From a virus, in IMG/VR virus record IMGVR_UViG_3300028045_000007, positions 62,001 to 126,000 of that record: 64,000 nucleotides of DNA; one strand, 5' to 3'. Position 1 is the first letter of the stretch. Each line of letters starts with the position of its first letter. Below are positions 37,176 to 57,951 of the stretch, in pieces. A model generated the notes under the pieces. The model was not told the DNA's origin. It saw only the letters and a program-made list of their open reading frames with translations, and made no database searches. The position numbers were made by a program, and so were the translations under genes.

Positions 37176-37826
37176 ATGCTTGATCATGCAGAGACCATTT
37201 TGGATAATTATGGTCCACTCATCAAGAAGATTGCTAGGTCGGCTTGCTTCTCGTCTGCTACTATTGACATATTGGATTTGATTCAGGTTGGCGAGATCGC
37301 CGCACTGAGGGCAGTTAAGAAATATGATCCCTCGGCTGGTGCCACGATACGTTCATATGTAGCACGCTTGGTACGTCAAGATATTTATCGTGAGGCTGCC
37401 AGATTCCTTGGTGTGTTTACCGTGGATCCTCGCGTGACTAGCCTTGCAGCAAAAGCTAATCGCATGTCTCTAGATGGACACAGTGATGAAAGTATCGCTA
37501 CGGCTCTTGACGAGTCAAGTAGTTATGCACTGGACGCAGATCATGTACGAGATCTTCGGCTCGCGTACAGTCGTCGCCAGTACGTGGTTACCCAGGATGA
37601 CGATGCACTAGATGAGTCTGATGCAGATCAACACACCATTAAAGAACTACTAATAGAGATTGTACAGGATGAGCCGGATAAGATTATTCTAGACAATCGA
37701 ATCCTTGGCACCTCTTCGGTACGTGACATTGCACGCCTACTCTCGGTGTCGCCGCGACGAGTTTATGAGTTGGAAAACGATCTCAAGGATCGTATCAAAC
37801 ATGCAATCAAAGGGATGACTGAATGA
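37176..37826 (+). CDS. Sigma-70-family-like transcription factor
   Basis: This 216-residue protein has a region-2-like segment (DLIQVGEIAALRAVKKYDPSAGATIRSYVARLVRQ, about residues 34-70; the core matches DLIQxGxxxLxxAVxKFD of sigma factors) and a C-terminal helix-turn-helix like region 4 (SVRDIARLLSVSPRRVYELE). The middle is divergent and acidic. Phage sigma-like factors redirect host RNA polymerase to late promoters. It is the last gene of the replication block and overlaps the first glycosyltransferase gene (ATGA), so it may drive the late classes. Confidence 0.75.
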   Translation: MLDHAETILDNYGPLIKKIARSACFSSATIDILDLIQVGEIAALRAVKKYDPSAGATIRSYVARLVRQDIYREAARFLGVFTVDPRVTSLAAKANRMSLDGHSDESIATALDESSSYALDADHVRDLRLAYSRRQYVVTQDDDALDESDADQHTIKELLIEIVQDEPDKIILDNRILGTSSVRDIARLLSVSPRRVYELENDLKDRIKHAIKGMTE

Positions 37827-39634
37827 AAAAACGTATTCTATTTGTGGGCGAAGCCAGTAATCTAAGCACTGGGTTTTCGACATATTATCGAGAATTGATA
37901 CCTCGTCTAGTAGCCACGGGCAAATACGAGATTGCTGAGTTTGGGTGCTATGTGCGTCAGGACGACCCCGCAGTTCATAACTTTATCCAGGGCCGCTGGA
38001 AGTTTTATGGCGTCATGCCAATGTCCGAAGAAGAGAATCAGGTCTTCAATCAGCCGAATCCACACCCTCGTACTCGTGGACAGAATACTAACCAGTTTGG
38101 CGAGTATAAGTTCAACAGTGTTGTTGCTGATTTCAAGCCCGATATTGTAATTGATATTCGAGATTGGTGGATGCTTGAATACCAGGAACGCAGTGTCTTT
38201 AGACCTTGGTACAAATGGATCGTGATGCCAACCGTGGACGCAGAGCCACAAGACGAGAGTTGGGTTCAAACTTACGAGAATGCCAATATGGTTTTGGCAT
38301 ATTCCGACTACGGAGTACATACGCTACGTCGTCAAAGTCAACTCATGCCCAATGGTCGCCGCAAAATGAAGGTATTCCCTACGCCTATGCGGCCCGGCGT
38401 TGATCTTACAGTTTTCAAACCTATAGATAAAGCCGATACTCGTGAGTATTGGAATATGTCTAAAACCAATCCTGTAATTGGTACAGTAATGCGTAATCAA
38501 AGTCGTAAACTGTATCCAGACTTGATTGATGCTTTTTCACTCATGAAGAAGCGATACAAGGGTGTTGATGCTGTCGATAAGGCCGTACTCTTGATTCATT
38601 CGTCTTGGCCCGACAATCAGCATTCATTTGATTATCCACGTCATATGATGAGGCTTGAAACGTATGAATGGCTACCTCATTACAACAAGGGCATTCGTGG
38701 TAGTGTCTTGCAAACCATGCACTGTCACGCTTGTAAAGAACCATCTGTGACGTTTGCTATGAACCTTTATGGTAAACCCCTGCAAGATGGACGTATTAAG
38801 TTACCTTGTCCTCATTGTGGTGCGGTAGAAGCTTCGCCTCCGGGTACTGGCGGAGGATTTACTCGTGAACGACTAGCTAAACTATATAACCTCATGGATC
38901 TGTATGTACAATGCTCTATTTGTGAGGGCGATGGCATGCCGATCCAAGAAGCGAAGGCGTGCGGTGTGCCAGCACTCATGACAGATTACACGGCCATGCG
39001 TGAGAAGGGGCGTTTTCCAGACTATCCTCACTTTGAGGAACTCAAGATAACCGAAGACACATACACCTGTCCGAAGGGTGGCATGGTTGTAGATGTTGAG
39101 CGGTACTATTACGAGCCTGAAACTAGTTGTCGCCGAGCACATCCGTCAATCAGTGACCTAGCTGACAAGATGCATAAGGCTATCTCGGATGACGATCTTC
39201 TTGCCAAAATGTCCACCGAGGCCAGAGAGTGTGCCGAAGAGAACTACGACTGGGAGGAATTGTGGCAGCAATGGGAATATGTGCTGGACAACGTTGTGCC
39301 AATGGATAGATCAGAGACCTGGGATAGTCCTATCGTAGAACACGATGAAGTCAAGCCCGTGCCCATTCCTGACAATTTGAGCGACGAACAGTACGTGGAA
39401 TGGCTATACATTAATGTTCTCAAGTATCCTGTCGTAGACCCGGAGGGTGCAAAGACATGGATTCAACACCTACAACTCGGTGTGCCGCGTGAAAGACTCA
39501 TGGAGCAATTCGTTGCTATCGGTAACCAACAATCAGATGGCAGTAAAGTGCGTGATCAGATCCGTAGTCAGATGCTTCCACAGGGACATAGCGTAACGCC
39601 CGTGGCCAATAGACCAAAACAGGAGTTCATTTAA
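37823..39634 (+). CDS. GT-B glycosyltransferase with zinc-ribbon insert and DUF4214-like C-terminus
   Basis: This 603-residue GT4-type enzyme begins with the donor-domain style strand ILFVGEASNLSTGFSTY. The C-terminal half of the GT-B fold contains CSICEGDGMPIQEAKACGVPALMTD, the EX7E nucleotide-sugar-binding motif. Between the two halves lies a Cys4 site (C301, C304, C329, C332), an insertion I do not know from ordinary GT4 enzymes. The last about 70 residues (SDEQYVEWLYINVLKYPVVDPEG...) resemble a DUF4214 domain, often found in secreted or surface proteins. First gene of the glycan island; acceptor unknown. Confidence 0.82.
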   Translation: MKKRILFVGEASNLSTGFSTYYRELIPRLVATGKYEIAEFGCYVRQDDPAVHNFIQGRWKFYGVMPMSEEENQVFNQPNPHPRTRGQNTNQFGEYKFNSVVADFKPDIVIDIRDWWMLEYQERSVFRPWYKWIVMPTVDAEPQDESWVQTYENANMVLAYSDYGVHTLRRQSQLMPNGRRKMKVFPTPMRPGVDLTVFKPIDKADTREYWNMSKTNPVIGTVMRNQSRKLYPDLIDAFSLMKKRYKGVDAVDKAVLLIHSSWPDNQHSFDYPRHMMRLETYEWLPHYNKGIRGSVLQTMHCHACKEPSVTFAMNLYGKPLQDGRIKLPCPHCGAVEASPPGTGGGFTRERLAKLYNLMDLYVQCSICEGDGMPIQEAKACGVPALMTDYTAMREKGRFPDYPHFEELKITEDTYTCPKGGMVVDVERYYYEPETSCRRAHPSISDLADKMHKAISDDDLLAKMSTEARECAEENYDWEELWQQWEYVLDNVVPMDRSETWDSPIVEHDEVKPVPIPDNLSDEQYVEWLYINVLKYPVVDPEGAKTWIQHLQLGVPRERLMEQFVAIGNQQSDGSKVRDQIRSQMLPQGHSVTPVANRPKQEFI

Positions 39635-39635: not shown

Positions 39636-40895
39636 ATGAAACTACTACTCACTGGACCGCTCCTAGACTTCAGCGGCTTTGCTCATGCGTCGCGTGACAT
39701 CTTGCGTATGCTGCTCGAAAGCGACGAACTCGATATCGTAATCCGTCCCCTGCGGTATGATCAGCTAGATCCGGGGCAGGAGTTTGAGGTTCCGGATTGG
39801 ATGCAGCCGCTACTGGAAAAAGACCTCATGAATGTTGACATGGTATTGCAGATTACTACGTGCAACGTAGAGGCAGTACCGATCCCCGGCGTGGTCAATG
39901 GACTCTATACCTTTTTCGAGACCAATAGATTACAACCTAATTGGGCAGCTAAGGCTCAGGAATTTGACTTTCTAATTGTGCCGTCGCGATTCAACGCCGA
40001 GGCCCTTGGTTATTCTGGCGTGACCAAACCCGTCTTAGTTGCTGCTCCTCCGTGCGACGAGGACACGTACAAGCGTGAATATACTCCCTTTGAGATTGCA
40101 GACGTAGAGGGACGTACTGTATTCTATAATATCTGTCAGCTTAGTACTAAAAAAGGCATCGATGTTTTGCTGAGGGCATACTATGCGGCGTTTGCCGGTG
40201 CTCCGGATGACGTTTTGCTTGTTCTTAAGACGTATGTCGATATGCAGAATCGTCAAAATGATTTTGATATTGTAAAAGGGTACATTGAGGGTATCAAGGC
40301 ACGTTGTCGCATCCCGGTGGAGAAACTTCCCCCCGTATTACCTGTTGTGTATACCATGACAGATGATGAAATTCATGGCCTACACACTAGAGGCGACGCC
40401 TATGTTTGCTCCAGTCGTGCAGAGGGTTGGGGACTGCCTGTATTTGATGCAATGGCACATGGCAATACCGTAATTTCGCACGACAAGAGTGGTCTGGGAG
40501 ATTTCGTGTCTCGTGAAAATTGCTTGCTTTATGGTGGCACACCCTCGTTCTTCTATGATATGCCACATCCGGACCCCTTGCTCTTTACAGGTATTGAGCA
40601 ATGTCTTGAGCCCTCACCAGTTGAATTGGCTTTGACCATGCAGCAGTTTCACTTGCTTCGTAAGGGTAACGAGAGCGACGAGCTAGACGAAGCCCATCAA
40701 GAACAATGGAGTGCTGTATTGCAGCGACGCGAGAATGCTGCACAGGTTGGTCAACGCTTTGACTATCGCAACATTAGTGGCAAAGTTGTTACACAGCTTT
40801 TGGCGGCACTTAAGTCTTGGAAAGAGACAGGTGTGGTCAGTTATGATGCAACCGCAGAAGGTACCGTAGTAGGTAGTCTAGAGGATCAACTATGA
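39636..40895 (+). CDS. GT-B glycosyltransferase (GT4-like)
   Basis: This 419-residue enzyme has an N-terminal Rossmann domain (LLTGPLLDFSGFAHASRDI) and a C-terminal nucleotide-sugar-binding domain with CSSRAEGWGLPVFDAMAHGNTVISHD, including the EX7E motif. NICQLSTKKGIDVLLRAY marks the linker region of GT4 enzymes. Only one base separates it from the previous glycosyltransferase gene, and the next overlaps by four. It likely transfers a sugar from an NDP donor with retention of configuration. Two adjacent GT4 enzymes suggest successive additions to one glycan. Confidence 0.85.
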   Translation: MKLLLTGPLLDFSGFAHASRDILRMLLESDELDIVIRPLRYDQLDPGQEFEVPDWMQPLLEKDLMNVDMVLQITTCNVEAVPIPGVVNGLYTFFETNRLQPNWAAKAQEFDFLIVPSRFNAEALGYSGVTKPVLVAAPPCDEDTYKREYTPFEIADVEGRTVFYNICQLSTKKGIDVLLRAYYAAFAGAPDDVLLVLKTYVDMQNRQNDFDIVKGYIEGIKARCRIPVEKLPPVLPVVYTMTDDEIHGLHTRGDAYVCSSRAEGWGLPVFDAMAHGNTVISHDKSGLGDFVSRENCLLYGGTPSFFYDMPHPDPLLFTGIEQCLEPSPVELALTMQQFHLLRKGNESDELDEAHQEQWSAVLQRRENAAQVGQRFDYRNISGKVVTQLLAALKSWKETGVVSYDATAEGTVVGSLEDQL

Positions 40896-41929
40896 ATAAT
40901 CAACCCCTATATGTTCCGCAGATGCAGTCTATTGCGGACTGTGTAAATAAGCCCGTGCGTATTGTGCAATGTATTCAAATGCACAACGAGGAGGAGTTCG
41001 CATCACTTGTGCTTGCCTCCCTCTATGACGAGGTAGACCGCATCCTCGTCATAGAAGGGGCAGTTGAAAATAGACCTAACTCCACAGAGGATGGACACTC
41101 TATTGATAGCACGAAAGAGATTTTGGCTGACTTTAAAGCCAATCATGACCCCGACAACAAAGTCGTAATCATCTCTATCAATAAACACTGGAAGAACCTA
41201 GAGGAGATGAAGCAAGCATTCCTAGATATGTCATTTCCGGGCGACTGGATTCTTATCAATGACGCTGACGAGTTCTATCGCCCAGAAGATATTCGTCGCT
41301 TGCGGCGAGCGATCGATCTAAATCCTCACGCCTGTGAGTTTGTGCCTAACTTCCTACACTTCTATGGCGACATCTTCCACGTTGCTGTGCCCGGTCCCGA
41401 ATGGCAACCGCAGCACCAGAGGTTCTTCAAGTTTGTGCGTGGCATGAAATACAACTCTCACCCAGTTGTGACCGATCCCGCTGGCCACTGTACATATTTC
41501 TCTCTACACTACCAACATCGTAGAGTGATGCTCAACGATTTCTGGATCTACCACTATGGTTATGCTCGCCGCAACATGAAAGCAATCATGACCGACAAGC
41601 AAGAGTACTACAAAGGGGAACTCGCTAAGCATGACGGTGCAGACAAGAAGTTCGACCAGAAGGTACAGGATTGGATGGACGGGACCGAGCCGGTGCTGGA
41701 GTTTGACGGACAACATCCGGCCATTTTTGAAGCCAAACCGGGCGTGCCGTTGCCAAGCCTAATGGTGCCTATGGACCACGAGCTAAACGTGGTTGGTAGC
41801 TGGAAGGACGATCCGTTTTACAGCAAAGTACTTGCTGGAGAAGAATACGGCAACATTTACCTATGTATGACGGGTAGGGCACAACCACACATAGAACACT
41901 ACCACAATGGTATGGAGATACAACAATGA
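40892..41929 (+). CDS. GT2-like glycosyltransferase (GT-A fold)
   Basis: This 345-residue protein shows a GT-A type organisation: an N-terminal IVQCIQMHNEEEF, a central LINDADEFYRPEDI with the metal-binding DxD-type motif near residue 128, and WKNLEEMKQAF before it. The His/aromatic-rich middle (SLHYQHRRVMLNDFWIYHYGYARRNMK) is typical of a family in which GT2 domains act on glycans or glycoproteins. It is coupled by ATGA overlaps on both sides. The sugar and acceptor are unknown. Confidence 0.75.
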   Translation: MNNQPLYVPQMQSIADCVNKPVRIVQCIQMHNEEEFASLVLASLYDEVDRILVIEGAVENRPNSTEDGHSIDSTKEILADFKANHDPDNKVVIISINKHWKNLEEMKQAFLDMSFPGDWILINDADEFYRPEDIRRLRRAIDLNPHACEFVPNFLHFYGDIFHVAVPGPEWQPQHQRFFKFVRGMKYNSHPVVTDPAGHCTYFSLHYQHRRVMLNDFWIYHYGYARRNMKAIMTDKQEYYKGELAKHDGADKKFDQKVQDWMDGTEPVLEFDGQHPAIFEAKPGVPLPSLMVPMDHELNVVGSWKDDPFYSKVLAGEEYGNIYLCMTGRAQPHIEHYHNGMEIQQ

Positions 41930-42258
41930 GACTACGTCATAAACTTGCGGCATTGCTCACTAGATGGGCACTCTGTCTTGATCCCACCAACGCTACTATA
42001 CGTCGTGCGGCACTTGAAGCACTCGACGCTCGTAATCTCGCACAAGAGAAGGAATTTAGCGATGGCTTTTCTCAGATCGATTGGGTCAAGAGAGACATCG
42101 AGGGTGGCAGGGAGGATTGTGATCACATGAACGTTCTGTGTGAGGTTCACGACATAGAAGATCGCCCATATCGTGTGTGTAGCCGATGCAGGGCTCGTGT
42201 ATATATTCCACGTGCAGAACACAAAAGAGGACTTATTCCGTTTGACGGCACAAAATGA
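41926..42258 (+). CDS. Hypothetical small Cys/His protein, 110 aa
   Basis: Coupled by ATGA overlaps to both neighbours. The N-terminus is basic with a short hydrophobic stretch (LAALLTRWALCLD) that could bind a membrane peripherally. The C-terminal half has CDHMNVLCEVHD...CSRCR, a candidate zinc site. It may be an accessory protein of the glycan genes. No family is recognised. Confidence 0.5.
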   Translation: MRLRHKLAALLTRWALCLDPTNATIRRAALEALDARNLAQEKEFSDGFSQIDWVKRDIEGGREDCDHMNVLCEVHDIEDRPYRVCSRCRARVYIPRAEHKRGLIPFDGTK

Positions 42259-42689
42259 ATTACACATACAAATACCCCCGCTACGACATCACGTGTGATA
42301 TTGCGTGTGTCGTTTGGAACTTTTACTCCAAACAGGCAACAGAGCTTCTACTGATTAAGCGTGGAGTTGAGCCTGACAAGGGCAAATGGGCGTTGCCGGG
42401 AGGACACCTTGATCCTGATGAACTCTTGATCGAGTGTGCCGCACGCGAACTACAAGAAGAAACGGGGCTAGTTGCTGATCTGCAACCTGTTCGTAACTTT
42501 GACACTATAGATAGGTCTCCAAACGACCGATGTATCTGTTGTCTTTTCATGGCAAAGTTTGACATCAGTAGACCAGAGGTGGTAGCGGGTGACGATGCCG
42601 TAGATTACAAGTGGATCAAGGCGGGAGACCTAGACGATATTGACTTTGCATTCGACTGCAAGGAAATGGCTAAGACTATACTACTATGA
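42255..42689 (+). CDS. Nudix hydrolase
   Basis: This 144-residue protein has a complete Nudix box at residues 50-72 (GX5EX7REUXEEXGU: Gly50, Glu56, Arg64, Glu65, Glu68, Glu69, Gly71). Nudix enzymes cut nucleoside diphosphates linked to another group, such as NDP-sugars, NADH, ADP-ribose or 8-oxo-dGTP. Its location between glycosyltransferases suggests NDP-sugar or sugar-nucleotide turnover, while the nearby NMNAT-like gene makes NAD-related substrates an alternative. Translationally coupled on both sides. Confidence 0.9.
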   Translation: MNYTYKYPRYDITCDIACVVWNFYSKQATELLLIKRGVEPDKGKWALPGGHLDPDELLIECAARELQEETGLVADLQPVRNFDTIDRSPNDRCICCLFMAKFDISRPEVVAGDDAVDYKWIKAGDLDDIDFAFDCKEMAKTILL

Positions 42690-43624
42690 AGAAAGTACTG
42701 TACGTTGGCTTGAAATGGAATTACGGTAAGAAAGAGGAGGACACTTCCTTTGAATACCGTAACATTGAGGCGGGCATCAAGGAGTGTGCTGACGTTACCT
42801 GTTGGCATCCGGACGAACCAAGCATGTCCGAAGATGAGTTGCTAGAATTAGTCCCTAAGTTTGATTGTATCTTCCATACGGCGTTTAACGAGACTCTTGA
42901 CCTACCAGAGTCGGTAGCTCGCCTTGCCATGAGGATTGATATTCCTGTTGTGCAGTGGGACTGTGATGCGTCCTGGAGATTCCACAACTGGATCCTGCCG
43001 CATCGCAAGGATAGAGCGTCGCACTTTATTACTACTCACTCCTCTACGGTGGGGTGGTACGAGAAATGCGGTATGAACGTGATCAAGTCCCAGTGGGCGG
43101 GCTCTCCGATGTATGTTGGCAAACCAGATACTCCCAAGCTATACGACGTTGGCTTTGCTGGGCAAAAGCACGGCATTAGAACTCAGTTGATAGAGGTTAT
43201 GGCCAAGGCTGGCTTCGATGTCCATGTCTTTGGTCATTACTGGGAAGACTTTCCTAACTCTCATCCACATACACCGCAGCTTCAGCAGATGATTGATGTC
43301 TTGGACGCCTCCAAGATTTGTCTCAATCTGTCCAACCCGTGGCACGTTGGCACAATGCCTCAGATCAAGGGTAGACACTTTGAAATCCCCCAAGTTGGAG
43401 GCTTTCAACTGACAACGACTGCTGACAACCTTGACGAATACTTTGTTCCCGACAAAGAAATCATCGTCGTTCATTCTGCACCAGACCTAATTGAGCGTTC
43501 GCTGTACTATCTTGATCACGAAGATGAGCGGTTGGCTATCGCGAAGGCCGGTCAGGAAAGAGTGCTCCGTGATCATCAATGGAAACATAGGTTCGAGGAT
43601 ATCTTTAATGAGATTGGAATCTGA
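42686..43624 (+). CDS. CgeB-like glycosyltransferase
   Basis: This 312-residue GT-B-type protein resembles CgeB/DUF3880-like glycosyltransferases: an N-terminal half with FDCIFHTAFNETLDLPE and VVQWDCDASWRFHNW, then DVGFAGQKHGIRTQLIEVMAKAGFDVHVFG. A C-terminal half carries KGRHFEIPQVGGFQLTT (donor-binding), and a helical end of the spore-maturation family type (ERSLYYLDHEDERLAIAKAGQERVL) closes it. A second, divergent CgeB-like gene is at 50174. It overlaps the NMNAT-like gene by 17 bases. Confidence 0.8.
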   Translation: MKKVLYVGLKWNYGKKEEDTSFEYRNIEAGIKECADVTCWHPDEPSMSEDELLELVPKFDCIFHTAFNETLDLPESVARLAMRIDIPVVQWDCDASWRFHNWILPHRKDRASHFITTHSSTVGWYEKCGMNVIKSQWAGSPMYVGKPDTPKLYDVGFAGQKHGIRTQLIEVMAKAGFDVHVFGHYWEDFPNSHPHTPQLQQMIDVLDASKICLNLSNPWHVGTMPQIKGRHFEIPQVGGFQLTTTADNLDEYFVPDKEIIVVHSAPDLIERSLYYLDHEDERLAIAKAGQERVLRDHQWKHRFEDIFNEIGI

Positions 43625-44186
43625 CATCATTCGTGACATCGATGGCGTTTTATGCTATAACAATTTTGAGTTCTGTGATCCAGTGCCATTCTTGAATTCG
43701 TGCCCAGCTATTTTTCCTGGGTCGTTTAACCCCGTACACGATGCACATTTGGCTATTGGTACGGAATGCTTATTTGAGATCTGTGTAGACAATTTCTATA
43801 AGGGACTTGCCGATCCGGAAGATATCCTGCATCGCATTAAGATGTTGTCACTATGTGGCGTGCCCGTATTGCTCACCAAGGGTCGTAGTTATGTTGAAAA
43901 AGACAGGCTGTTGCGTAGTTGTCGCAATACACGCTACGTGTATCGTATTGGCAGTGATGCGTGGCACAGATGCATTCGATCTGAGGGTATGTTTGATGGC
44001 GTAGACGCTGCCTTTGAAGTGTACGCCTATCCTGGCGAGACCGTTGCGAGTGCAGACCTAGACTTTTGTGTTGTTCATCTACCAAGACCTCAGGTGCGTG
44101 CGTCTGATATCCGACTGGGTAAACCACACAATATCCCCGACGTTGTTAGGGAGTATATAGATCAAAACGGATTGTATCAAGTATGA
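43608..44186 (+). CDS. NMNAT/NadD-like nucleotidyltransferase
   Basis: This 192-residue protein starts at ATG 43608 after GAGGAT. It has the nucleotidyltransferase signature GSFNPVHDAH at residues 38-47 (GxFxPxHxxH; the His pair binds ATP phosphates) and a C-terminal VRASDIR, equivalent to the ISSTxIR phosphate-binding motif of NadD. YVYRIGSDAW corresponds to the substrate-binding strand. It would join an ATP- or CTP-derived nucleotide to a phosphate substrate: NMN/NaMN adenylylation (NAD synthesis) or activation of a sugar/alcohol phosphate. The N-terminal DIDGVLCYNN recalls HAD motif I but no HAD domain follows. Overlaps glycosyltransferases on both sides. Confidence 0.78.
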   Translation: MRLESDIIRDIDGVLCYNNFEFCDPVPFLNSCPAIFPGSFNPVHDAHLAIGTECLFEICVDNFYKGLADPEDILHRIKMLSLCGVPVLLTKGRSYVEKDRLLRSCRNTRYVYRIGSDAWHRCIRSEGMFDGVDAAFEVYAYPGETVASADLDFCVVHLPRPQVRASDIRLGKPHNIPDVVREYIDQNGLYQV

Positions 44187-45040: not shown

Positions 45041-45417
45041 TCGCTAGCGACCTCGTTCTGAAGATTAAGCTCGTGGACGCTCGACTTGCTAGTGAAAAAA
45101 TCATTAGTGATGCCCTCAGAAAAGAACTAAACTCGGTACGCAGGAGATACGCCGAGGTTACGGAAAAGCTCCACATGAAGCTTGCAAATGATGATTCCAG
45201 AGCGGCAGTTCAGATCCTTAGGGAGAGAATGGGCATGGATTCAACCCTTCCTGGCAAGCTTGATATCGTCAGACAACAACTTCGTCAGGAACTTGCCGTA
45301 GCCTGCTATCACGACGAGTTACTTGAACATTACGCCAGCGATCAGTGCTCTTTCGACGACCTTCCTCTTGAGGAACGTAAGCGATACTTCAAGATGATCG
45401 ACGACCAAACCTCATGA
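45007..45417 (+). CDS. Hypothetical coiled-coil protein, 136 aa
   Basis: The ATG at 45007 follows CAGGAAAA; an earlier GTG at 44977 lacks a ribosome-binding site. The protein is mainly helical and charged, with a long probable coiled coil from about residue 10 to 100, and overlaps both neighbouring glycosyltransferase genes. It may be a scaffold or regulatory subunit for them. No family is recognised. Confidence 0.5.
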   Translation: MEKIKAWWYKLVASDLVLKIKLVDARLASEKIISDALRKELNSVRRRYAEVTEKLHMKLANDDSRAAVQILRERMGMDSTLPGKLDIVRQQLRQELAVACYHDELLEHYASDQCSFDDLPLEERKRYFKMIDDQTS

Positions 45418-49995: not shown

Positions 49996-50177
49996 ACTAC
50001 TTCTATGTCAGAAACACCAAGAACGCCGAGGTCATCAAGGGGTTTCACCGCGAAATGATGGTCTGGCAAAGCGAAGAAGAGGCTACGGCATTCATTGAAC
50101 GTTTGCCTGTTGGCCAATCCTCGTGGGAGGTTGCCCGTTGTCCTATTGAAAATCGTCCAGAACAAGAAGACAAATGA
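49992..50177 (+). CDS. Small hypothetical protein, 61 aa
   Basis: Coupled by ATGA to both neighbours. A beta strand ([19 protein letters not shown]) is followed by an acidic helix and a Pro/Glu-rich end. Too short to classify. The tight coupling and intact reading frame support it being real. Confidence 0.45.
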   Translation: MNYFYVRNTKNAEVIKGFHREMMVWQSEEEATAFIERLPVGQSSWEVARCPIENRPEQEDK

Positions 50178-51091
50178 AGATTCTAGTCTCATATCGTGGC
50201 ATTCCGCAGTCACCAGGGTGGGCTGTCGGCGACATGGTTATTACGGCACTCCGTGACCTTGGTCACGAGGCCCACCCATACGCCAAGTACTATCAAAAGA
50301 ACGATTGGGTCAAGACTCGTCCCATGCTGGACGATCATGACTGGGACCTGATTCTGTACGTCGAATGCAACGATGCAGATCAGCAGTATACGGAGCTAAG
50401 GATAACACGTGCCCGTAAAACAGCTTGTTGGCTATTCGATACCAGCTATCACGAAGACCGTTACCAGTCTCTTGTGAACTACTTCGGCTTTGATCATCTT
50501 TTTCTAGCCAACCCACTCACTATCCAACAATACAAGGTATGGGGGTATAAGAATGTCCATTATCTACCTTATGCATCTGATAGCAAATTACACGTACGTT
50601 CGTTGGAACATCCCAAAACTCATGACGTGGTGCTTGTTGGGTCTGTTAGAGACGATAGGCGTACTCTTATTGCTCAGCTCCGTGAGGGCGGCATAAACGC
50701 AGAGTTAATTGGAGGCAAATTTCGCGAAGAGTACATTGATACCCTCGCAGCAGCGAGGGTAGTGGTCAATCAGAACCCCGAGATTGGTCGTGGCCTCCTA
50801 AACATGAGGTTTTTCGAGGCTCAATCTGCTGGTGCTATTCTATTGACAGAAGACAGTGATAGGCAACACAACCATTTAGTTTCCCTAGAAAAAGCTACCG
50901 AGGGCTCTATTGGTTATGATTCCATGAATGATTTAATGTTCCTTGCTCGTGAAGCTTTGGAAGATAGTGAAGGACGGCAAAAACATTGTGAGTGGGCACA
51001 GACTAATATACTCACTAACCACACCTATCATAATAGGTGTCAACAAATTTTAGAGACAGTGTTTTCAAATGAAAGAAACCGACAGTATTAG
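50174..51091 (+). CDS. CgeB-like glycosyltransferase, second copy
   Basis: This 305-residue GT-B type protein has an N-terminal half with HDWDLILYVECNDADQQY and TACWLFDTSYHEDRYQSL, and a C-terminal half with HDVVLVGSVRDDRRTLIAQL and RGLLNMRFFEAQSAGAILLTE, matching the CgeB/DUF3880-like pattern. It resembles the 42686 product in layout but not in close sequence. It ends 23 bases into the next GT2 gene. Confidence 0.75.
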   Translation: MKILVSYRGIPQSPGWAVGDMVITALRDLGHEAHPYAKYYQKNDWVKTRPMLDDHDWDLILYVECNDADQQYTELRITRARKTACWLFDTSYHEDRYQSLVNYFGFDHLFLANPLTIQQYKVWGYKNVHYLPYASDSKLHVRSLEHPKTHDVVLVGSVRDDRRTLIAQLREGGINAELIGGKFREEYIDTLAAARVVVNQNPEIGRGLLNMRFFEAQSAGAILLTEDSDRQHNHLVSLEKATEGSIGYDSMNDLMFLAREALEDSEGRQKHCEWAQTNILTNHTYHNRCQQILETVFSNERNRQY

Positions 51092-51734
51092 TGTTTTACT
51101 CTGCGTACATAGCCAAGATCATGAACATGATATGCTTTTGCAGCGTGCCCTTGAGTCATTAGTGGCACAAACGTATACAGATTTCGAGACGGTCATCGTG
51201 ATGGACGAGTGCTGGGACGGCACCCGCCACATCGTTGATAGCTATGGTGAGGTGTTAGACTTACGGGTCCATGAACGCCCCCGCAAGGAGGGCTTGGCAG
51301 CAGCTAAGAACTTTGGCCTTAACCATTGCGACCACGAATGGATTGCCTATCTAGACGCCGACGATCAGTGGCTTGATTGCAAGCTCGAAGTGCAGCGGAA
51401 GTGGCTATTGGAGCGACCAGAGGTGGACTTTTGCGGGACAAACGCCTGGGACCTACTTGATGGTGCGATGGTACCCAATTGCTTTGAAGTCACGCAATAC
51501 AGCACGCATAACGATATTGTTGAGAGACTACCTTACGAGAATATCCTTTGTCATGGCAGCATGATGATTCGTCGTTCCGCTCTTCATGCTTTGGGTGGCT
51601 ATAGTCGTGACAAAGTGTTGCTTGGTCGTGAAGATTGGAATCTATGGCAACGAGCCGTGGCTGCCGGATATAACTTCGGCAAAATCGCGGAGAGGCTTTA
51701 CATTTACTCATTAGGAACTAGCGTACCCCGTTGA
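51069..51734 (+). CDS. GT2 family glycosyltransferase
   Basis: This 221-residue GT-A enzyme has a typical GT2 start (SVLLCVHSQDHEHDMLLQRALESLVAQTY), then AYLDADDQWLD with the DxD-type motif near residue 98 and EGLAAAKNFGLNH just before it. RGREDWNLWQR-like residues (LLGREDWNLWQRAVAAGY) sit on the acceptor side. It is short for GT2 (a core domain only). It overlaps its upstream neighbour and ends just before the methyltransferase start. Confidence 0.87.
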   Translation: MKETDSISVLLCVHSQDHEHDMLLQRALESLVAQTYTDFETVIVMDECWDGTRHIVDSYGEVLDLRVHERPRKEGLAAAKNFGLNHCDHEWIAYLDADDQWLDCKLEVQRKWLLERPEVDFCGTNAWDLLDGAMVPNCFEVTQYSTHNDIVERLPYENILCHGSMMIRRSALHALGGYSRDKVLLGREDWNLWQRAVAAGYNFGKIAERLYIYSLGTSVPR

Positions 51735-51736
51735 CA

Positions 51737-52390
51737 ATGAATACTAAAGGACATAATCCATTTAAAGATACGCCCGACAATCATGATTTCATGACCGAGG
51801 AGCACGTCTCTGTTTTTCTTCGGAACCACAAGACAGGAGTTGATAATCTGGGACGACACATGCTGGTAGACATAGTTGCACGGTATGATAATCCCAGGGT
51901 GTTGGACATGGCATGTGGCACGTGTGTCAACTGGGATGTATTCAAACAACGCGGACTCAAGTGTCAATATGTTGGTTTAGATCGTACGACCAGTATGATT
52001 CTCGAAGCAGATAAACGCTATGGCACTGAGATCACCCTTCATGAAGGATATGTACAGCGTACAGGGCTACCTGATGACTTCGCCGACATAGCTATTATGC
52101 GACACATACTTGAGCATTTACAGGAGGGGTATGAGGATGCGATTAGAGAGGGGTTGCGTGTTGCCTCCAAGGAACTCGTTGTTGTTTTCTTCTTGACTCC
52201 TTCAAATAAGGATGAGGATGAAGTTAGTGAGTCCGAGCCAGATGAGAATGGCTGCACTTACTTCTGGAATACGTATAGTTGGTCCAAGTTTGCCGAGTTC
52301 GTTGCCACTTTGGGCGTACAGATGAAAGTTGGGCACGTTGTAACCCCTGGTGCCGCTCATGCTGACACGATTGTTCGACTAATCAAATGA
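51737..52390 (+). CDS. SAM-dependent methyltransferase (class I)
   Basis: The ATG at 51737 is preferred; a TTG two codons upstream is also in frame. The 217-residue protein has RVLDMACGTCVNWDVF (motif I, here with a less common CGT rather than GGG), VGLDRTTSMI (motif II acidic residue) and GLPDDFADIAIMRHILEHL (motif post-II/III), the Methyltransf_11 pattern. Likely a small-molecule or sugar O-methyltransferase. The first of a run of methyltransferases; the next gene overlaps by four bases. Confidence 0.8.
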   Translation: MNTKGHNPFKDTPDNHDFMTEEHVSVFLRNHKTGVDNLGRHMLVDIVARYDNPRVLDMACGTCVNWDVFKQRGLKCQYVGLDRTTSMILEADKRYGTEITLHEGYVQRTGLPDDFADIAIMRHILEHLQEGYEDAIREGLRVASKELVVVFFLTPSNKDEDEVSESEPDENGCTYFWNTYSWSKFAEFVATLGVQMKVGHVVTPGAAHADTIVRLIK

Positions 52391-53229
52391 TCCCCGACGT
52401 TACGTACTTCATTCTCGACTACAATCCACGCTGTCAAGATCAGGCGAGTGGATATCTTGATGCGTGTATTCGTTCGCTGTATGCCAACCGCAACAGCAGC
52501 ATCACGAGCGAAGTGTACGTGATTGATCAAGGTAATGGTTTTACCGACTACAAGAATGCACTAGCCAACAAGTGTGCTGGCTATGGCTTTCACTTCGTTG
52601 GCCTGGACCACAACAAGGGCATTTCCGGCGGCATCAATCTGGCGGCTCGCCTAAGTCGCAGTCCGCACCTATGTCTAGTGACCTCAGATACGACATTCAC
52701 GCCCGAGCTTGATACAGTGCTTTTGGGAGAGCTAGAAGCACACGATGACATCTATCAAATAACGCCTTCTGTAGATAAAGGAGACATTCCGTATCAGGTG
52801 CAAGGATTCACAGATAGCAAGGATCCTATCCGTTGTGCTGTTCAAGAGCTTACTATTCAGTGCTGGAAAAGAGAAGTGTTTGACGTTATTGGCTACTGGG
52901 ATGAGCGATGGCTTGCTTGTTACGAGTCGGCAGACTATCCCCTGCGGTTATTTCTGACGGGGCGTTGCTCTGCGGCTATCACGCACAAGATTTCCTGCCA
53001 TCACGAGCACAATACTACCTATCACAATGGTTCCCTGGCGGACGCCTACGGTGGGCAGTTTGATCATGGGCCTCTACGTCATATGTGGGACGAGAAGTGG
53101 CCCGGCCTAGACTGGGACATGCTGTACGATCTGACTCAGTACAACGAAACCACGAGAGCCCGTCTTGCCGCCCAGTACTACCAAAACATCGCATTATCAT
53201 GGAACGCTCAGCAATCATCAGGCACCTGA
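52387..53229 (+). CDS. GT2 family glycosyltransferase
   Basis: This 280-residue GT-A protein has a GT2-like start (VTYFILDYNPRCQDQ...YLDACIRSLYAN), GLDHNKGISGGINLAARLS (the NxGxxxGxN motif of GT2 rhamnosyl-type enzymes) and LCLVTSDTTFTPELD (metal-binding motif near residue 97). ELTIQCWKREVFDVIGYWDE fits the acceptor-binding segment ending in DE. NxGxxxG enzymes often add rhamnose or related deoxysugars; fucose addition is an idea only. Confidence 0.82.
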   Translation: MIPDVTYFILDYNPRCQDQASGYLDACIRSLYANRNSSITSEVYVIDQGNGFTDYKNALANKCAGYGFHFVGLDHNKGISGGINLAARLSRSPHLCLVTSDTTFTPELDTVLLGELEAHDDIYQITPSVDKGDIPYQVQGFTDSKDPIRCAVQELTIQCWKREVFDVIGYWDERWLACYESADYPLRLFLTGRCSAAITHKISCHHEHNTTYHNGSLADAYGGQFDHGPLRHMWDEKWPGLDWDMLYDLTQYNETTRARLAAQYYQNIALSWNAQQSSGT

Positions 53230-53777
53230 TCCGTGCATACGGCTTTCAGTCCTATCTCGAAATTGGCGTACGTGGTCGCGAGACCCTGAGTCAGATTGAT
53301 CTGTCCGTTGTGGACGGTGTCGATCCGAACGGCCAGGGCAACTATACCATGACCTCCGACGAGTTTTTCGAGTCCCATTGCAAGCGTAGTTATGATATAA
53401 TCTTTGTCGATGGACTACATTTGCATGAGCAGGCCAAAAAAGACATAGAAAATGCCCTGACGCATTTGAGCGACAACGGTATAATTGTAGTACATGACTG
53501 TCTTCCGGAAGAGGAGTGGCATCAGCTACGGGAAGGCATATCTGGGCGTCCCTGGAACGGAGACGTTTGGAAGGCTTTCGCGGATCTGCGATCCGAGAGG
53601 GCCGATCTTAGTATGTATGTTGTGGACACCGATTGGGGTTGCGGCATCATTAGACGTGGTTCTCAGTACCTCTACCCTCGTCCTGATGAGTGGACTTGGG
53701 GGTATTTCAAGCAGCATAGAGACAATATCATGAACGTAGTAACAGTAGAGGAGTTCCTTGGATATTCACAACCGTAA
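53199..53777 (+). CDS. SAM-dependent methyltransferase (Methyltransf_24-like)
   Basis: The start is taken at ATG 53199, removing a 38-residue extension that overlaps the upstream gene. The 192-residue protein has YLEIGVRGRETLSQID (motif I), VDGVDPNGQGNY (motif II) and YDIIFVDGLHLHEQAKKDIENALTHL (motif with the metal-binding-like D-G-x-H). NGIIVVHDCLP follows (VxxHD, typical of Methyltransf_24 enzymes acting on sugars). The C-terminal tail overlaps the next methyltransferase by 20 bases. Confidence 0.8.
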   Translation: MERSAIIRHLIRAYGFQSYLEIGVRGRETLSQIDLSVVDGVDPNGQGNYTMTSDEFFESHCKRSYDIIFVDGLHLHEQAKKDIENALTHLSDNGIIVVHDCLPEEEWHQLREGISGRPWNGDVWKAFADLRSERADLSMYVVDTDWGCGIIRRGSQYLYPRPDEWTWGYFKQHRDNIMNVVTVEEFLGYSQP

Positions 53778-54273
53778 ATGGATCGAGGCGGTAGCCCCGC
53801 AGTACTCGCCTTTCAATCCCGATCAGAAGGTGCTGGAAATTGGCAGTTGGATTGCCCCAGGACAGGAAGAGATCGTGTGTCGCAAGACTATTGCTCCGCT
53901 CGTTGGAGAATACGTCGGATTGGACATGCAGGACGGCAATGGCGTTGATGTTGTATCGGACGCCAAGCTCATGCCGTTCTCTGATGAGCACTTTCATGTA
54001 ATCATCAGTACCGATTGCTACGAACATGTAGATTGGCCTCGTGAAGTGACGCACGAGGCTTATCGTGTTTTGAAGCAAGGTGGCGTGTTCTACCTGACGA
54101 CCGTGTTTGACTTTGAGATTCATGGTTATCCGGATGACTTCTGGAGGTTCACGCCACACTGCATTAGGCTTCTTCTTGAGGACGCTGGATTTGAAGCGGT
54201 AGAGGTGACGGGGTGCGGCGGACCACATGCAAAGCGTCCGTGTATCGTCAGAGGAATAGGTATCAAGCGATGA
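53758..54273 (+). CDS. SAM-dependent methyltransferase (TTG start)
   Basis: A TTG start at 53758 preceded by GAGGAG five bases upstream is the best choice, since no in-frame ATG lies before motif I. The 171-residue protein has KVLEIGSWIAPGQE (motif I), VGLDMQDGNGVDVV, and HFHVIISTDCYEHVDWPREV...VLKQGGVFYLTTV, the pattern of Methyltransf_11 enzymes. EIHGYPDDFWRFTPHCIRLL is a recognised Tyr-Trp-Phe rich stretch of methyltransferases of this class. Sits in the middle of a run of short methyltransferases. Confidence 0.75.
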   Translation: MDIHNRKWIEAVAPQYSPFNPDQKVLEIGSWIAPGQEEIVCRKTIAPLVGEYVGLDMQDGNGVDVVSDAKLMPFSDEHFHVIISTDCYEHVDWPREVTHEAYRVLKQGGVFYLTTVFDFEIHGYPDDFWRFTPHCIRLLLEDAGFEAVEVTGCGGPHAKRPCIVRGIGIKR

Positions 54274-54803
54274 AGCTGAATCTGGCCAGCCACGGAGACA
54301 ATCGCGAGGGGTATGTGAACGTTGACTTCGATCACCCCGCCGCCGACCTGAAGGCAGACGTTACCGATTTGTTTACGATAGAAGATGAGTCAGTCGATGA
54401 GATCCTTGCCTTTCACATCCTAGAGCACTTCCGTGCTGGACATTACGAGCCGCACCTGTCCAATCCCCTCAATCCGAGAACAGTGATAGAGGCCCTGGCC
54501 GAGTGGAAGCGTGTCCTCAAGCCGGGCGGCAGACTGGAGATCAAGGTGCCTGACTTTGAGAAGGTCATTTGGCTTTTCCAGAACTTTCCCACGTGGTCTA
54601 GGAAGCCAGGTGGTAACGATCCATTCCCCGCATACTCTGACTGGCTTGTGTCCAATGGACAGCATCAGTGTATTTTCGACAGGCCAACCATGCTAAGCGT
54701 GCTACGGGCGGTCGGCTTTCGAGACATCAACTTTGTTGACTCGTCGCCCGAGGCAGTTGTCAATCGTGAAAACATAGAAATGTATGTAGTGTGTAGTAGA
54801 TGA
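54270..54803 (+). CDS. Predicted SAM-dependent methyltransferase (COG4627-like)
   Basis: Start at ATG 54270 (ATGA overlap). The 177-residue protein opens with KLNLASHGDNREGYVNVDF, a variant motif I of the COG4627-type methyltransferases in which Gly-rich residues are replaced, then DESVDEILAFHILEHF and WKRVLKPGGRLEIKVPDFEKV. These enzymes are usually associated with glycan or lipid modification in gene clusters. Coupled to the previous methyltransferase. Confidence 0.75.
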   Translation: MKLNLASHGDNREGYVNVDFDHPAADLKADVTDLFTIEDESVDEILAFHILEHFRAGHYEPHLSNPLNPRTVIEALAEWKRVLKPGGRLEIKVPDFEKVIWLFQNFPTWSRKPGGNDPFPAYSDWLVSNGQHQCIFDRPTMLSVLRAVGFRDINFVDSSPEAVVNRENIEMYVVCSR

Positions 54804-54852
54804 TCTTGAAATTGATCATATCGATCCCATGATAAAGGAAAACAATAGCGTA

Positions 54853-55824
54853 ATGAAAGTACTAATCACAGGAGCCCACGGCTTCGTAGGACATCACGTC
54901 GTCCGGGAGCTTGAAAAAGAGCATGAGCTTTTGACGCCTTCGCGTCGAGAGTTGAATTTACTGTACACGACAGATCCATGCGGAGATCCACTAAGGGAAA
55001 CTGAAGAGTACTTGAGGCGTAAGTCTGTAGATGCCATTGTGCATCTTGCGGCAACCTGCGGCGGCATTGGTATCAACAAAGACAACCCCGGCAAGTTCAT
55101 GTATGACAACCTACAGATGGGGATCAACGTGCTGGAGGCAGCACGCCTCGCGAACGTCTCAAAGGTTGTGGTACTCGGAACTGTTTGTGCCTATCCTAAG
55201 TTTACACCTATTCCTTTTCGAGAAAAAGACATTTGGAATGGCTATCCAGAAGAGACAAATGCCCCCTATGGCATAGCAAAGAAGACAGTCATGGAGATGG
55301 GTATTGCGTATTCGCGTCAGTATGGCATGAACATCACCAACCTCGTTCCTGTGAATATGGCGGGCGAGTGGGACAACTTTGACGAGTACAGCAGTCACGT
55401 GATCCCAGCACTGATCAAGAAGTTTGAGAACCCACACGGTACGGCCATACCCACCGTAGAACATGGTTACTACTGTGATCCCACGGTGGTGTTGTGGGGT
55501 ACTGGTTCTGCTTCACGCGAATTCCTATATGCTGGTGATTGTGCAAGAGCTATCGCGGTAGCTCTCGTGAAAAACACTGGTCCAGAACCAATCAACCTTG
55601 GTACCGGCAACGAAGTTACTATCAAGGATCTTGCGGAATTGGTAAAGCGGGTTGGTAAGTATGACGCCAATATCGTATGGGATCCTACGAAGCCAGATGG
55701 GCAGCCCAGACGTAGCCTAGACATTACAAGGGCACAGAATGTACTGAGGTGGAACGCTACCACTTCACTCTTTGAAACGGTACGTAGAACAATTGAGTGG
55801 TATAGAACAAATGGATCAGTATAG
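54853..55824 (+). CDS. NAD-dependent epimerase/reductase, GDP-L-fucose synthase-like
   Basis: ATG 54853 gives MKVLITGAHGFVGHH, the usual Rossmann start; an in-frame ATG at 54829 would add eight residues. The 323-residue SDR has GTVCAYPKFTPIPFREKD and NAPYGIAKK (YxxxK with catalytic Tyr and Lys) and the C-terminal PRRSLDIT region, like GDP-L-fucose synthase (Fcl/WcaG), which epimerises and reduces GDP-4-keto-6-deoxymannose. In Fcl the strand before CxYP holds a catalytic Ser (SSC); here it is Thr-Val-Cys, so the chemistry may differ. The gmd gene lies 1.1 kb downstream, completing the pathway on paper. Confidence 0.78.
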   Translation: MKVLITGAHGFVGHHVVRELEKEHELLTPSRRELNLLYTTDPCGDPLRETEEYLRRKSVDAIVHLAATCGGIGINKDNPGKFMYDNLQMGINVLEAARLANVSKVVVLGTVCAYPKFTPIPFREKDIWNGYPEETNAPYGIAKKTVMEMGIAYSRQYGMNITNLVPVNMAGEWDNFDEYSSHVIPALIKKFENPHGTAIPTVEHGYYCDPTVVLWGTGSASREFLYAGDCARAIAVALVKNTGPEPINLGTGNEVTIKDLAELVKRVGKYDANIVWDPTKPDGQPRRSLDITRAQNVLRWNATTSLFETVRRTIEWYRTNGSV

Positions 55825-56296
55825 TACACATACAGAGCTTCTAAAGTTTTTGATGGACAACCTTGCCATCGAAACAGTTTTGGAGTTAGGCATGGGACAC
55901 TTCAGCACCCCGTTGTTTCGGAGCTATCCAGGCGTTAGTTTAGTTAGCCTGGACTCTGACATCAATTGGGTCAATCAATTCAGTCCCGGTCCTAATCACA
56001 CCGTTGGTGCCTACCCACTACTGGGGTTTGCTCGCAACGTGACTTGGTTTGATTTAGCTTTTGTTGATGGTAATCCAGCCAGCGAACGTGCCGCCTGTGT
56101 ACAAGAGCTTTTGCTCAAAACTAGACTGGTTGTAGCACATGACACGGGTCCAGAAGACAATTGGAATTATCACTATGACGAGATCGTATTACCAGAAGGC
56201 TTTGTGCGTTTAGACTATACGAAAAAGTCACCGTGGACATCTGTTTTCACTGCTGACGCAGAAGTTATTGCTAAGGTACAAGAGTTCAATGGGTAG
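55811..56296 (+). CDS. Short methyltransferase-like protein
   Basis: Start at ATG 55811, overlapping the Fcl-like gene end by 14 bases. The 161-residue protein has VLELGMGHFSTPLFRSY (motif I-like), SLDSDINWVNQF (motif II) and WFDLAFVDGNPASERAACVQELL, then LVVAHDTGPEDNW, like Methyltransf_24 enzymes with the VDG/HD pair. It is shorter than usual and may be a compact sugar methyltransferase. No frameshift or truncation is evident. Confidence 0.65.
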   Translation: MDQYSTHTELLKFLMDNLAIETVLELGMGHFSTPLFRSYPGVSLVSLDSDINWVNQFSPGPNHTVGAYPLLGFARNVTWFDLAFVDGNPASERAACVQELLLKTRLVVAHDTGPEDNWNYHYDEIVLPEGFVRLDYTKKSPWTSVFTADAEVIAKVQEFNG

Positions 56297-56927
56297 AAAA
56301 ATCTTCCTAGATGTCGGGTGTAATACTGGTCAGTCTCTTGAGGCTGCACTAGACCATGACTTTGATGTCGTCTATTGTTTTGAGCCGGTGATGGAGTATT
56401 GTCAGTCGTTACAGTCTGGCGTCTTGTCTTCTGATGTCGGTTCTGGCATTGCAGAAAGACCTTACGACCAAACCAGGGTGGTCATTTGTCCCTTTGGACT
56501 TTGGGTCAATACCGAGCGTATTTCTGTACATAGTCCTCACACAATGGCAGCGTCAGTGTTTGACGACCACCAGGACAGCGAGGGCGGCACCACAGAGTGT
56601 CAGTTTGTCAAGGCTTCCGAGTGGTTACGACATCACATCACCGACGACGATTTTGTTGTCATGAAAATGAATTGTGAGGGTAGCGAGTGTACCATTCTGG
56701 ACCATCTAATGGACAGTGATACTATACACTTGATCGATCACATTATGGTTGATTTTGATGCAATGAAGATTCCGTCCCAACGCCATAGACCGCAGCGTAC
56801 TATTTGGAACCTGAACAATCATGGTGTTGATTACGTGTTCGCCGAGGACGTTATGTGCGGGGCTACCCACCACGATCGTATTTGCTATTGGCTAAAAGAA
56901 AAGGTTGAGGAGATCAATGAACGATAA
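56289..56927 (+). CDS. FkbM-like SAM-dependent methyltransferase
   Basis: Start at ATG 56289 (MGRKIFLDVGCNTGQSLEAAL, motif I). The 212-residue protein has VVYCFEPVMEYCQSL (the EP motif of FkbM enzymes), and FVVMKMNCEGSECTILDHL (the KxNCEGxE strand typical of FkbM). FkbM-type enzymes commonly methylate sugar hydroxyls. Overlaps the end of the preceding gene and the start of gmd, which is evidence for one coupled transcript. A second FkbM enzyme is encoded at 11990. Confidence 0.8.
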   Translation: MGRKIFLDVGCNTGQSLEAALDHDFDVVYCFEPVMEYCQSLQSGVLSSDVGSGIAERPYDQTRVVICPFGLWVNTERISVHSPHTMAASVFDDHQDSEGGTTECQFVKASEWLRHHITDDDFVVMKMNCEGSECTILDHLMDSDTIHLIDHIMVDFDAMKIPSQRHRPQRTIWNLNNHGVDYVFAEDVMCGATHHDRICYWLKEKVEEINER

Positions 56928-57951
56928 AACAGCAATTGTTACTGGTATTACAGGACAGGACGGATTCTATCTCGCCCACTATCTACTCTCGTTGGGCTAT
57001 CGTGTCATTGGCGTAGTGCGTCGTACGTCCATGCCCACAGACTGTCGTTTACGTACGTTGCGTGGCAGCCCCAATCTACATCTGGTACAGGGAGACGTTA
57101 CTGACATTTCCAGTTTACAAAAGGCCGTGCGTGACTTTGCTCCCGATGAGTTCTATCACCTAGGGGCACAGAGTCACGTGGCTATGTCTTGGGAGTATCC
57201 CTTGGCCACCGCAGACATCACGGGTATTGGCGTACTCAACTGTCTAGAGGCTATTCATACAGAGAAGCCAGACTGTAGATTCTATTTTGCTGGCAGCAGC
57301 GAGCAATTCGGCAATTCGATCGGTAAGCCTATCGAGGGAGAGATTCAGAACTACCTCAATGAAGATTCGCCGATGCATCCCGAGTCTCCTTACGCCGTGA
57401 GTAAGGTTTTCGGATACAATATGACTAGAGTTTATCGTAGGTCGTTCGACATGTTCGCGTCCTGCGGTATTCTGTTTAACCATGAGTCACCGGTTCGAGG
57501 TGAAGAATTTGTGACTCGCAAAATTACGAGCCAACTGGCTCGTGTGAAGTGGGGATTACAAGAGTACGTTGAGCTTGGCAATATGGACGCCTGCCGTGAC
57601 TGGGGATTCGCTGGAGACTATGTGCGTGGTATGCACGCCATACTACAGCACGATGAACCAGATGACTTCGTTCTAGCGACTGGCGAAACCAATTCCGTCA
57701 AGACGTTTTTCCAGAGATGCTGCCAGTGGTTTGATTTAGATCCGGATGAGGTCTATAAGGTCAATCCAAAGTTCATGCGTCCCAAGGACATCAACGTACT
57801 ATTGGGCGATAGCTTGAAAGCACGCAGCACGTTGGGTTGGGAGCCCACTTGTGCGTTCGATCAACTAGTAGACAAGATGTGTCAGTACGACTATCATCTA
57901 CAGTCGCCAGATCCAGCTTATACCCGTCAAGCAGACGAGTTTCTATTTTAG
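56917..57951 (+). CDS. gmd: GDP-mannose 4,6-dehydratase
   Basis: This 344-residue SDR starts at ATG 56917 with TAIVTGITGQDGFYLAHYLL (NADP-binding GxxGxxG), then VRRTSMPTDCRLRTL, HLGAQSHVAMSWEYP, FAGSSEQFG and SPYAVSKVFGYNM (catalytic SSE and YxxxK), followed by ILFNHESPVRGEEFVTRKIT, a segment very specific to GDP-mannose 4,6-dehydratases. It would convert GDP-mannose to GDP-4-keto-6-deoxymannose, the substrate of the Fcl-like enzyme upstream. Fucose, rhamnose or perosamine pathways all start here. Last gene of the glycan island, 9 bases before the next gene. Confidence 0.92.
   Translation: MNDKTAIVTGITGQDGFYLAHYLLSLGYRVIGVVRRTSMPTDCRLRTLRGSPNLHLVQGDVTDISSLQKAVRDFAPDEFYHLGAQSHVAMSWEYPLATADITGIGVLNCLEAIHTEKPDCRFYFAGSSEQFGNSIGKPIEGEIQNYLNEDSPMHPESPYAVSKVFGYNMTRVYRRSFDMFASCGILFNHESPVRGEEFVTRKITSQLARVKWGLQEYVELGNMDACRDWGFAGDYVRGMHAILQHDEPDDFVLATGETNSVKTFFQRCCQWFDLDPDEVYKVNPKFMRPKDINVLLGDSLKARSTLGWEPTCAFDQLVDKMCQYDYHLQSPDPAYTRQADEFLF

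Follow-up and report, generated by a model that had tools for sequence, protein, structure and literature searches.

A conserved glycan-gene island with an exchangeable cassette in a lineage of uncultured tailed phages, and its possible role on the virion

Introduction

Why does a tailed phage carry 11 glycosyltransferases (GTs) beside the enzymes of a GDP-deoxyhexose route, and what would it decorate with them? The question is raised by a 64,000-nucleotide stretch of viral DNA (the window), bases 62001–126000 of the 154,408-base uncultured phage record IMGVR_UViG_3300028045_000007 (G000), in which a glycan-gene island occupies positions 37823–57951. The record is that of a tailed phage, with genes for terminase, portal, tape measure, PolIII-type DNA polymerase, RecA, primase and ribonucleotide reductase. 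An earlier note on the window described the island and its GDP-sugar enzymes, and overlooked what we find to be its strongest features: a backbone of genes conserved across a phage lineage, an exchangeable cassette, and a second GT pair beside the terminase gene. The island is intact, conserved and under selection. We lean, if slightly, towards the interpretation that it directs a phage-made oligosaccharide, with a core built by the backbone GTs and caps supplied by the swappable cassette, most likely carried on a virion protein.

Results

A conserved backbone under purifying selection

Relatives were gathered by scanning IMG/VR with Gmd, GT4a and TerL, and by a TerL scan of bacterial genome contigs. 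Eighteen island-bearing relatives, from a lineage of uncultured phages, were compared with the window phage (19 phages in all); the sample is small and some members are closely related (G014/G015 and G002/G004), which leaves fewer than 18 independent observations. In all 18 the island lies in the same place as in the window phage and is bounded by the same two genes, with GT4a on the 5′ side, Gmd on the 3′ side and 16–27 kb between them, which confirms the limits first assigned to it, from the first base of GT4a to the last base of Gmd. The earlier note had proposed looking for the same gene order in other phages, and we found 13 backbone genes in 17–18 of the 18 relatives, nearly always in one order: GT4a-GT4b-GT2a-GT2b-GT4c-GT4d-GTx-IMPDH-like-CgeBb-GT2c-CgeBa-[cassette]-Fcl-Gmd. 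The exceptions are the window phage itself, where CgeBa lies further forward, between Nudix and NMNAT-like genes, and G016 and G021, where the IMPDH-like gene precedes GT4d. The methyltransferases and GT2d are present in between one and 15 relatives.

The island genes of the window phage lie on the plus strand, and all are open. The backbone begins with GT4a (37823–39634; PF00534, 1.8e-10), which has a C-terminal DUF4214 domain (PF13946), GT4b (39636–40895; PF00534) and GT2a (40892–41929; PF00535). These are followed by the displaced CgeBa, elsewhere found after GT2c (42686–43624; PF13524, 1.5e-29), GT2b (44183–45040; PF00535, 8.6e-12), GT4c (45414–46484; PF13692, 1.8e-9) and its paralogue GT4d (47056–48222, likely start inside open reading frame (ORF) 47035; PF13692, 1.3e-12). 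GTx (48203–48943, likely start inside ORF 48116) and an IMPDH/GMP-reductase family enzyme without CBS domains (48940–49995) precede CgeBb (50174–51091; PF13524, 1.3e-13) and GT2c (51069–51734; PF00535, 1.3e-21), the final backbone gene ahead of the cassette. Fcl (54853–55824, likely start inside ORF 54829) and Gmd (56917–57951) complete the set. GTx and the IMPDH-like gene are each found in 17 of the 18 relatives, and the other 11 in every one.

The reported number of 11 GTs (GT4, GT2 and CgeB-like) holds, ten being recognised by Pfam and the eleventh by its predicted GT-A fold. Five of the six genes proposed as methyltransferases have Pfam support of some kind, clear for four (ORFs 51731, 53085, 53758 and 54213) and FkbM/DUF7870-like for one; the sixth (ORF 55772) is assigned by eye only. 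The overlaps between genes that had suggested one operon are present, and a single operon may be inferred from them, with a 178-nt gap ahead of 50174.

Degradation of most of these genes, which would have counted against a functional island, is not seen: omega, for genes of close relatives where divergence permits an estimate, is mostly 0.05–0.26, indicating purifying selection. This bears on the idea of stuffer DNA, in which functionless genes are retained to fill the headful, an explanation considered for cyanophage lipopolysaccharide (LPS) clusters (PMC3037559). It is contradicted by the strength of the purifying selection and by a gene order that hardly varies over 19 diverged phages, and we regard it as scarcely credible here.

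The variable cassette and its exchange

The cassette occupies one site, between the last backbone GT and Fcl, and holds most of the methyltransferases and one GT2. In the window phage it comprises MT1 (51731–52390; PF08241, 1.4e-10; in 15 of 18 relatives), GT2d (52387–53229; PF00535, 7.4e-10; nine), MT2 (53199–53777, likely start inside ORF 53085; PF13578, 1.3e-10; six), MT3 (53758–54273; PF08241, 6.1e-10; six) and MT4 (54270–54803, likely start inside ORF 54213; PF08241, 5.7e-7; eight). Six other phages share the set MT1, GT2d, MT2 and MT3, with or without MT4. G005 and G007 carry a kinase, a class II aldolase, a HAD protein, a TylF-type methyltransferase and a double nucleotidyltransferase at this site; five relatives carry sets of GT, HAD and nucleotidyltransferase genes, and G002 has a sulfotransferase-like gene and a NovU-type C-methyltransferase.

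Exchange is most readily seen between G002 and G004, which are 94–99.8% identical over long flanking stretches. The interval from GT2c to Fcl measures 8.1 kb in G002; its G004 counterpart is 3.9 kb long, and most of its DNA is different. Synonymous divergence (dS) between the two is ∼0 in GT4a, GT4b and GT2a, ∼1 at CgeBa, Fcl, FkbM and Gmd, and 2.7 in the strongly diverged GTx; since GTx and other genes have diverged as well, exchange is not limited to one spot. We mapped four cassette types (A–D) onto a tree of six backbone GTs, where they need five changes against a least possible three. The sister phages G005 and G024 differ, with type B in the first and type A in the second; type D occurs in G004 and G010, and type C forms one clade. 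With C confined to a clade, although A, B and D each call for repeated changes, we rejected the idea that cassette type is independent of phylogeny; judged from the sequences, cassette exchange is real, yet not free of ancestry. A recent direct transfer of the type shared by G004 and G010 was also considered and is not supported, the identity of their cassette genes being no higher than that of their backbones.

Genes for homing endonucleases (HNH_3 and LAGLIDADG by Pfam, and one family HNH-like by eye) are scattered in the islands, several of them beside the cassette or Fcl, and that they drive cassette exchange is a guess. Exactly at the cassette/Fcl boundary the window phage retains 50 bp of an HNH-like endonuclease gene (54798–54847, plus strand; HNH motif by eye, no Pfam match), identical to the reverse complement of record bases 1–50, which suggests a branch in the assembly or else a second variant of the insert within the population.

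The methyltransferases thus sit where terminal decorations are exchanged, in keeping with the earlier proposal that they cap the product. A division into core and caps is the likely interpretation: about ten backbone GTs would assemble a core glycan common to the whole phage lineage, and the cassette enzymes (methyltransferases and GT2d here, other sets elsewhere) would add or cap variable outer sugars. The cassette contents also admit a different product: in place of a polymer on virion or surface, a glycoconjugate that is soluble or secreted, or a secondary metabolite. Enzymes such as methyltransferases of the TylF and NovU types and class II aldolases occur in secondary metabolism too, and such a product was suggested for one cyanophage cluster (PMC7824862). 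However, the backbone is dominated by its many GTs, and we saw no scaffold synthase or exporter, which makes this explanation very improbable.

The predicted sugar-nucleotide pathway

The dehydratase and Fcl-like reductase had been proposed to form a coherent GDP-deoxyhexose route. This is supported by their families and by the catalytic residues that they keep. Gmd has a full-length GDP_Man_Dehyd domain (PF16363, 8e-104; residues 11–325), and its catalytic Ser-Glu and Tyr-x3-Lys residues (S125/S126, E127, Y157 and K161) are invariant in five relatives. It scores 327 bits against the NCBIfam equivalog cut-off of 415 for TIGR01472, which is still by far its best match over other dehydratases. 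Fcl finds its best match among short-chain dehydrogenase/reductase enzymes in the GDP-L-fucose synthase-type epimerase/reductases (NF047922, 6.9e-76), at 255.6 bits against an equivalog cut-off of 500. Aligned with Escherichia coli GDP-fucose synthase (1bws), it retains four residues that we take to be catalytic (Cys, Tyr, Lys and His), with Thr in place of Ser. Because both enzymes score under their equivalog cut-offs the exact sugar is not fixed, with GDP-L-fucose the likeliest product by sequence comparison. The pathway would operate in the host cytoplasm, drawing on host GDP-mannose and converting it through Gmd and the Fcl-type enzyme to GDP-L-fucose or a close GDP-6-deoxyhexose; both this nucleotide-sugar product and the sugar sequence of the glycan are read from the genes. 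In the islands of G002, G004, G007, G017 and G024, though not in that of the window phage, there is a cupin similar to the mannose-6-phosphate isomerase domain at the C terminus of ManC, a hint of some function in GDP-mannose supply in these relatives.

GTx has no convincing Pfam match. An AlphaFold model built from 18 homologues (predicted local distance difference test score 88.8, predicted template modelling score 0.85) was compared with the PDB using Foldseek, which returned GT-A enzymes at modest TM-scores (∼0.4–0.55), including the PBCV-1 capsid GT (2p73); on these scores we place GTx provisionally among the GT-A enzymes. The IMPDH/GMP-reductase-like enzyme belongs to family PF00478 (1.7e-93) and misses all NCBIfam equivalog cut-offs; its nearest structure is 3r2g. 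By eye it appears to be without the Arg-Tyr pair of the IMPDH flap, leaning towards GMP reductase.

The acceptor of the glycan

The earlier note left the acceptor open between virion protein, DNA base and host surface. This was fair, and the indirect evidence now favours the virion over DNA or a membrane-exported polysaccharide. A second CgeB and GT2 pair lies directly upstream of the genes for an ERCC4-type nuclease, TerL and portal in each of the nine loci that cover this DNA. In the window phage the pair is at record positions 45850–47630, outside the window, and with an FkbM methyltransferase it forms a block (record 45850–48268) directly upstream of the terminase genes. The terminase-side CgeB is a paralogue of the island CgeBa. 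Another FkbM methyltransferase lies in the tail-gene module (window 11990–12619, plus strand; PF05050, 6.8e-17) and is a distant relative of a G002 cassette gene; among the compared phages, the FkbM genes of the packaging block and the tail module have their nearest relatives in the G002 cassette (∼41% and 26% identity, respectively). By analogy, the terminase-side GT pair and these FkbM links favour a virion acceptor over the envelope or DNA. The glycan would then be joined to a virion protein, with the CgeB and GT2 beside the terminase genes taking part.

We scanned the islands and phage records for membrane proteins. A crude search for proteins with at least three hydrophobic segments found none in the 19 islands or in five phage records, nor any multi-pass candidate for a flippase, polymerase or initiating transferase; the same held for a ligase in the island and the five records. 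As a control, the scan detected a 589-residue, six-segment protein at the cellular Gmd locus of a Hydrogenophaga metagenome-assembled genome (MAG). To export a polysaccharide, the phage would thus depend on the machinery of its host at every stage. This speaks, as does the conserved GT pair in the packaging gene block, against remodelling of the host surface, in which the infected cell would have its LPS or capsule sugars altered to exclude competing phages. That explanation is the published one for the nearest compositional analogues, the cyanophage LPS clusters (PMC7824862, PMC9602691); diversified terminal decorations would fit it, and the phage could borrow the export machinery of its host. 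We consider it unlikely, if far from negligible.

Modification of phage DNA is the role for which phage GTs are best known, the enzymes glycosylating a modified base as protection against restriction, and the glycans so attached can be diverse according to a citing passage (Pyle 2024, cited in PMC12619734). We searched 12 records for a base hydroxymethylase of the thymidylate synthase family (PF00303) and found none, while nine of 14 controls were positive; Tet_JBP was likewise found in none of the 12, yet no control genome was positive for it either. The record does encode ThyX, dUTPase, UDG and a dNMP kinase, which suggest ordinary nucleotides in the phage DNA. At least ten GTs and a set of GDP-fucose-type enzymes, moreover, go beyond the needs of known base glycosylation, and we judge DNA hypermodification quite improbable.

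Several points weigh against a glycan on the virion. We infer this acceptor from gene context and not from a sugar seen on any virion protein, and no gene is demonstrably a protein-priming glycosyltransferase. The main island follows the replication genes, outside the virion operon. The lipid carrier and the export step, neither of which the phage has, could come from host enzymes, and similar cyanophage clusters have been read by their authors as serving host-surface modification (PMC9602691, PMC7824862). The subthreshold scores of the dehydratase and reductase, which leave the exact sugar open, belong here as well. Taking these together, we give a virion acceptor about an even chance.

Accessory genes, neighbours and lineage

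The Nudix and NMNAT-like genes named beside the IMPDH-family enzyme in the earlier description are both present, and are likely passengers. The Nudix hydrolase (42255–42689; PF00293, 3.5e-18) occurs in no relative apart from a fragment in the distant G006, and the NMNAT/cytidylyltransferase-like gene (43608–44186, likely start inside ORF 43491; PF01467, 0.003; NF005519, 4e-7) in none of the 18. As both are absent from all 18 island relatives, we ruled them out as part of the glycan route. The Nudix-CgeB-NMNAT-like triple (window 42255–44186) is shared only with G006 (36–1800) and looks like a moved unit, possibly of NAD metabolism.

Between Fcl and Gmd lie MT5 (55811–56296, likely start inside ORF 55772), which is methyltransferase-like by eye, has no Pfam or NCBIfam match and occurs in one of the 18 relatives, and the FkbM/DUF7870-like methyltransferase (56289–56927, likely start inside ORF 56268; PF25276, 6.4e-8; PF05050, 0.014), which occurs in three. 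A sigma-70-like gene (37176–37826, plus strand), assigned by sequence with no family match of its own, overlaps GT4a by 4 nt and is kept in 15 of 18 relatives. An FAD-dependent DAO-family oxidoreductase (window 61100–62332) lies shortly downstream of the island and is 59–62% identical in close relatives. Far from the island, on the minus strand, is a further stand-alone GT2 (record 143550–144149), with relatives in G002 and G004. In-frame insertions of ∼310–360 residues with intein-like ends interrupt three glycan genes, GT4a in G010 and G023 and Gmd in G019. We read the G010 insertion, which starts with Cys and ends with His-Asn-Cys, and the G019 insertion, which ends with Asn-Cys; that in G023 is deduced from a split match.

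The lineage has no close cultured relative. Against phage isolates, Megablast of the island gave zero matches, as did searches with GT4a and the terminase-adjacent CgeB; the best rows for TerL reached at most ∼28% identity over part of the protein, and the major capsid protein at most 25%, also over part. Binning placed a 158-kb relative with Hydrogenophaga and an 8.6-kb relative with Nitrospirales. Because these bins disagree and GC content differs (0.53 in the phage contig versus 0.65 in a contig of the Hydrogenophaga MAG), no host is claimed.

Comparison with known systems

The earlier statement that no phage system of this composition had been described does not stand. The cyanophages P-SSM2 and S-SCSM1 carry published Gmd-Fcl-GT clusters (PMC9602691, PMC3037559, PMC7824862), the second of which also has methyltransferases and, close by, a mannose-6-phosphate isomerase, and their authors took them for host-surface modification or left them unexplained. 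Like those of P-SSM2, S-SCSM1 and S-SSM7, the island has adjacent Gmd and Fcl-type genes and several GTs running in one direction in a phage genome. Homology is limited to Gmd (44–45% identity), Fcl (34–39%), one GT and some accessory genes: of the backbone GTs only GT4c and GT4d resemble one P-SSM2 GT, so that the GT sets are not homologous, and GT4a has no homologue in 50,697 phage records. The island further differs in its nearly fixed backbone with a swap site, its unrelated phage lineage and its second GT pair beside the terminase gene.

Bacterial O-antigen and capsule loci also combine conserved flanks with exchangeable sugar-decoration genes and a Gmd/Fcl supply. Unlike them, the phage island is without a flippase, polymerase or initiating membrane transferase. 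A parallel for GT genes linked to virion genes, as in the CgeB and GT2 pair upstream of TerL and portal (9/9 loci), is found in the mycobacteriophages Che8, Corndog and Myrna, whose GTs modify capsid and tail tube proteins, reportedly affecting antibody recognition (cited in PMC12363180 and PMC12619734); the citing passages mention no GDP-sugar pathway or cap cassette there. In the open-access literature, the scope of our search, we found no description of a conserved core with swappable caps in phages. The composition is known in kind, and the core-plus-cassette architecture and the lineage are provisionally new, as far as could be searched. Phage glycan clusters have so far been read as host-surface auxiliary genes or possible stuffer DNA, and a selected, lineage-wide backbone that has a site for swapping terminal modifications instead yields a concrete prediction on glycan core and caps. 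It also offers a defined gene set for testing the role of virion glycans in a phage, and a source of unusual glycosyltransferases.

The closest working model, by analogy, is the chlorovirus system. Chloroviruses encode Gmd and GMER and their own GTs, and build a conserved pentasaccharide core that is decorated differently in each virus; their glycans include methylated terminal rhamnose, and antigenic variants exist, one class of which has mutations in GT genes (PMC5408694, PMC7826918). PBCV-1 and the window phage are alike in having virus-encoded GDP-fucose enzymes, their own GTs and methyltransferase, and the predicted GTx fold resembles a PBCV-1 capsid GT. PBCV-1 is a eukaryotic virus with an established capsid glycan, whereas the island is known from its genes alone, with no demonstrated sequence homology to that system, and its genes are gathered in one place with a swappable cassette. 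We therefore put forward only tentatively, as a possibility we rather doubt than expect, that the island is the phage counterpart of chlorovirus capsid glycosylation, with a self-made fucosylated core on the virions of the entire lineage and caps exchanged between phages as a cassette to give phage ‘serotypes’. If true, variable sugar coats would evolve in tailed phages as well as in the giant viruses of algae.

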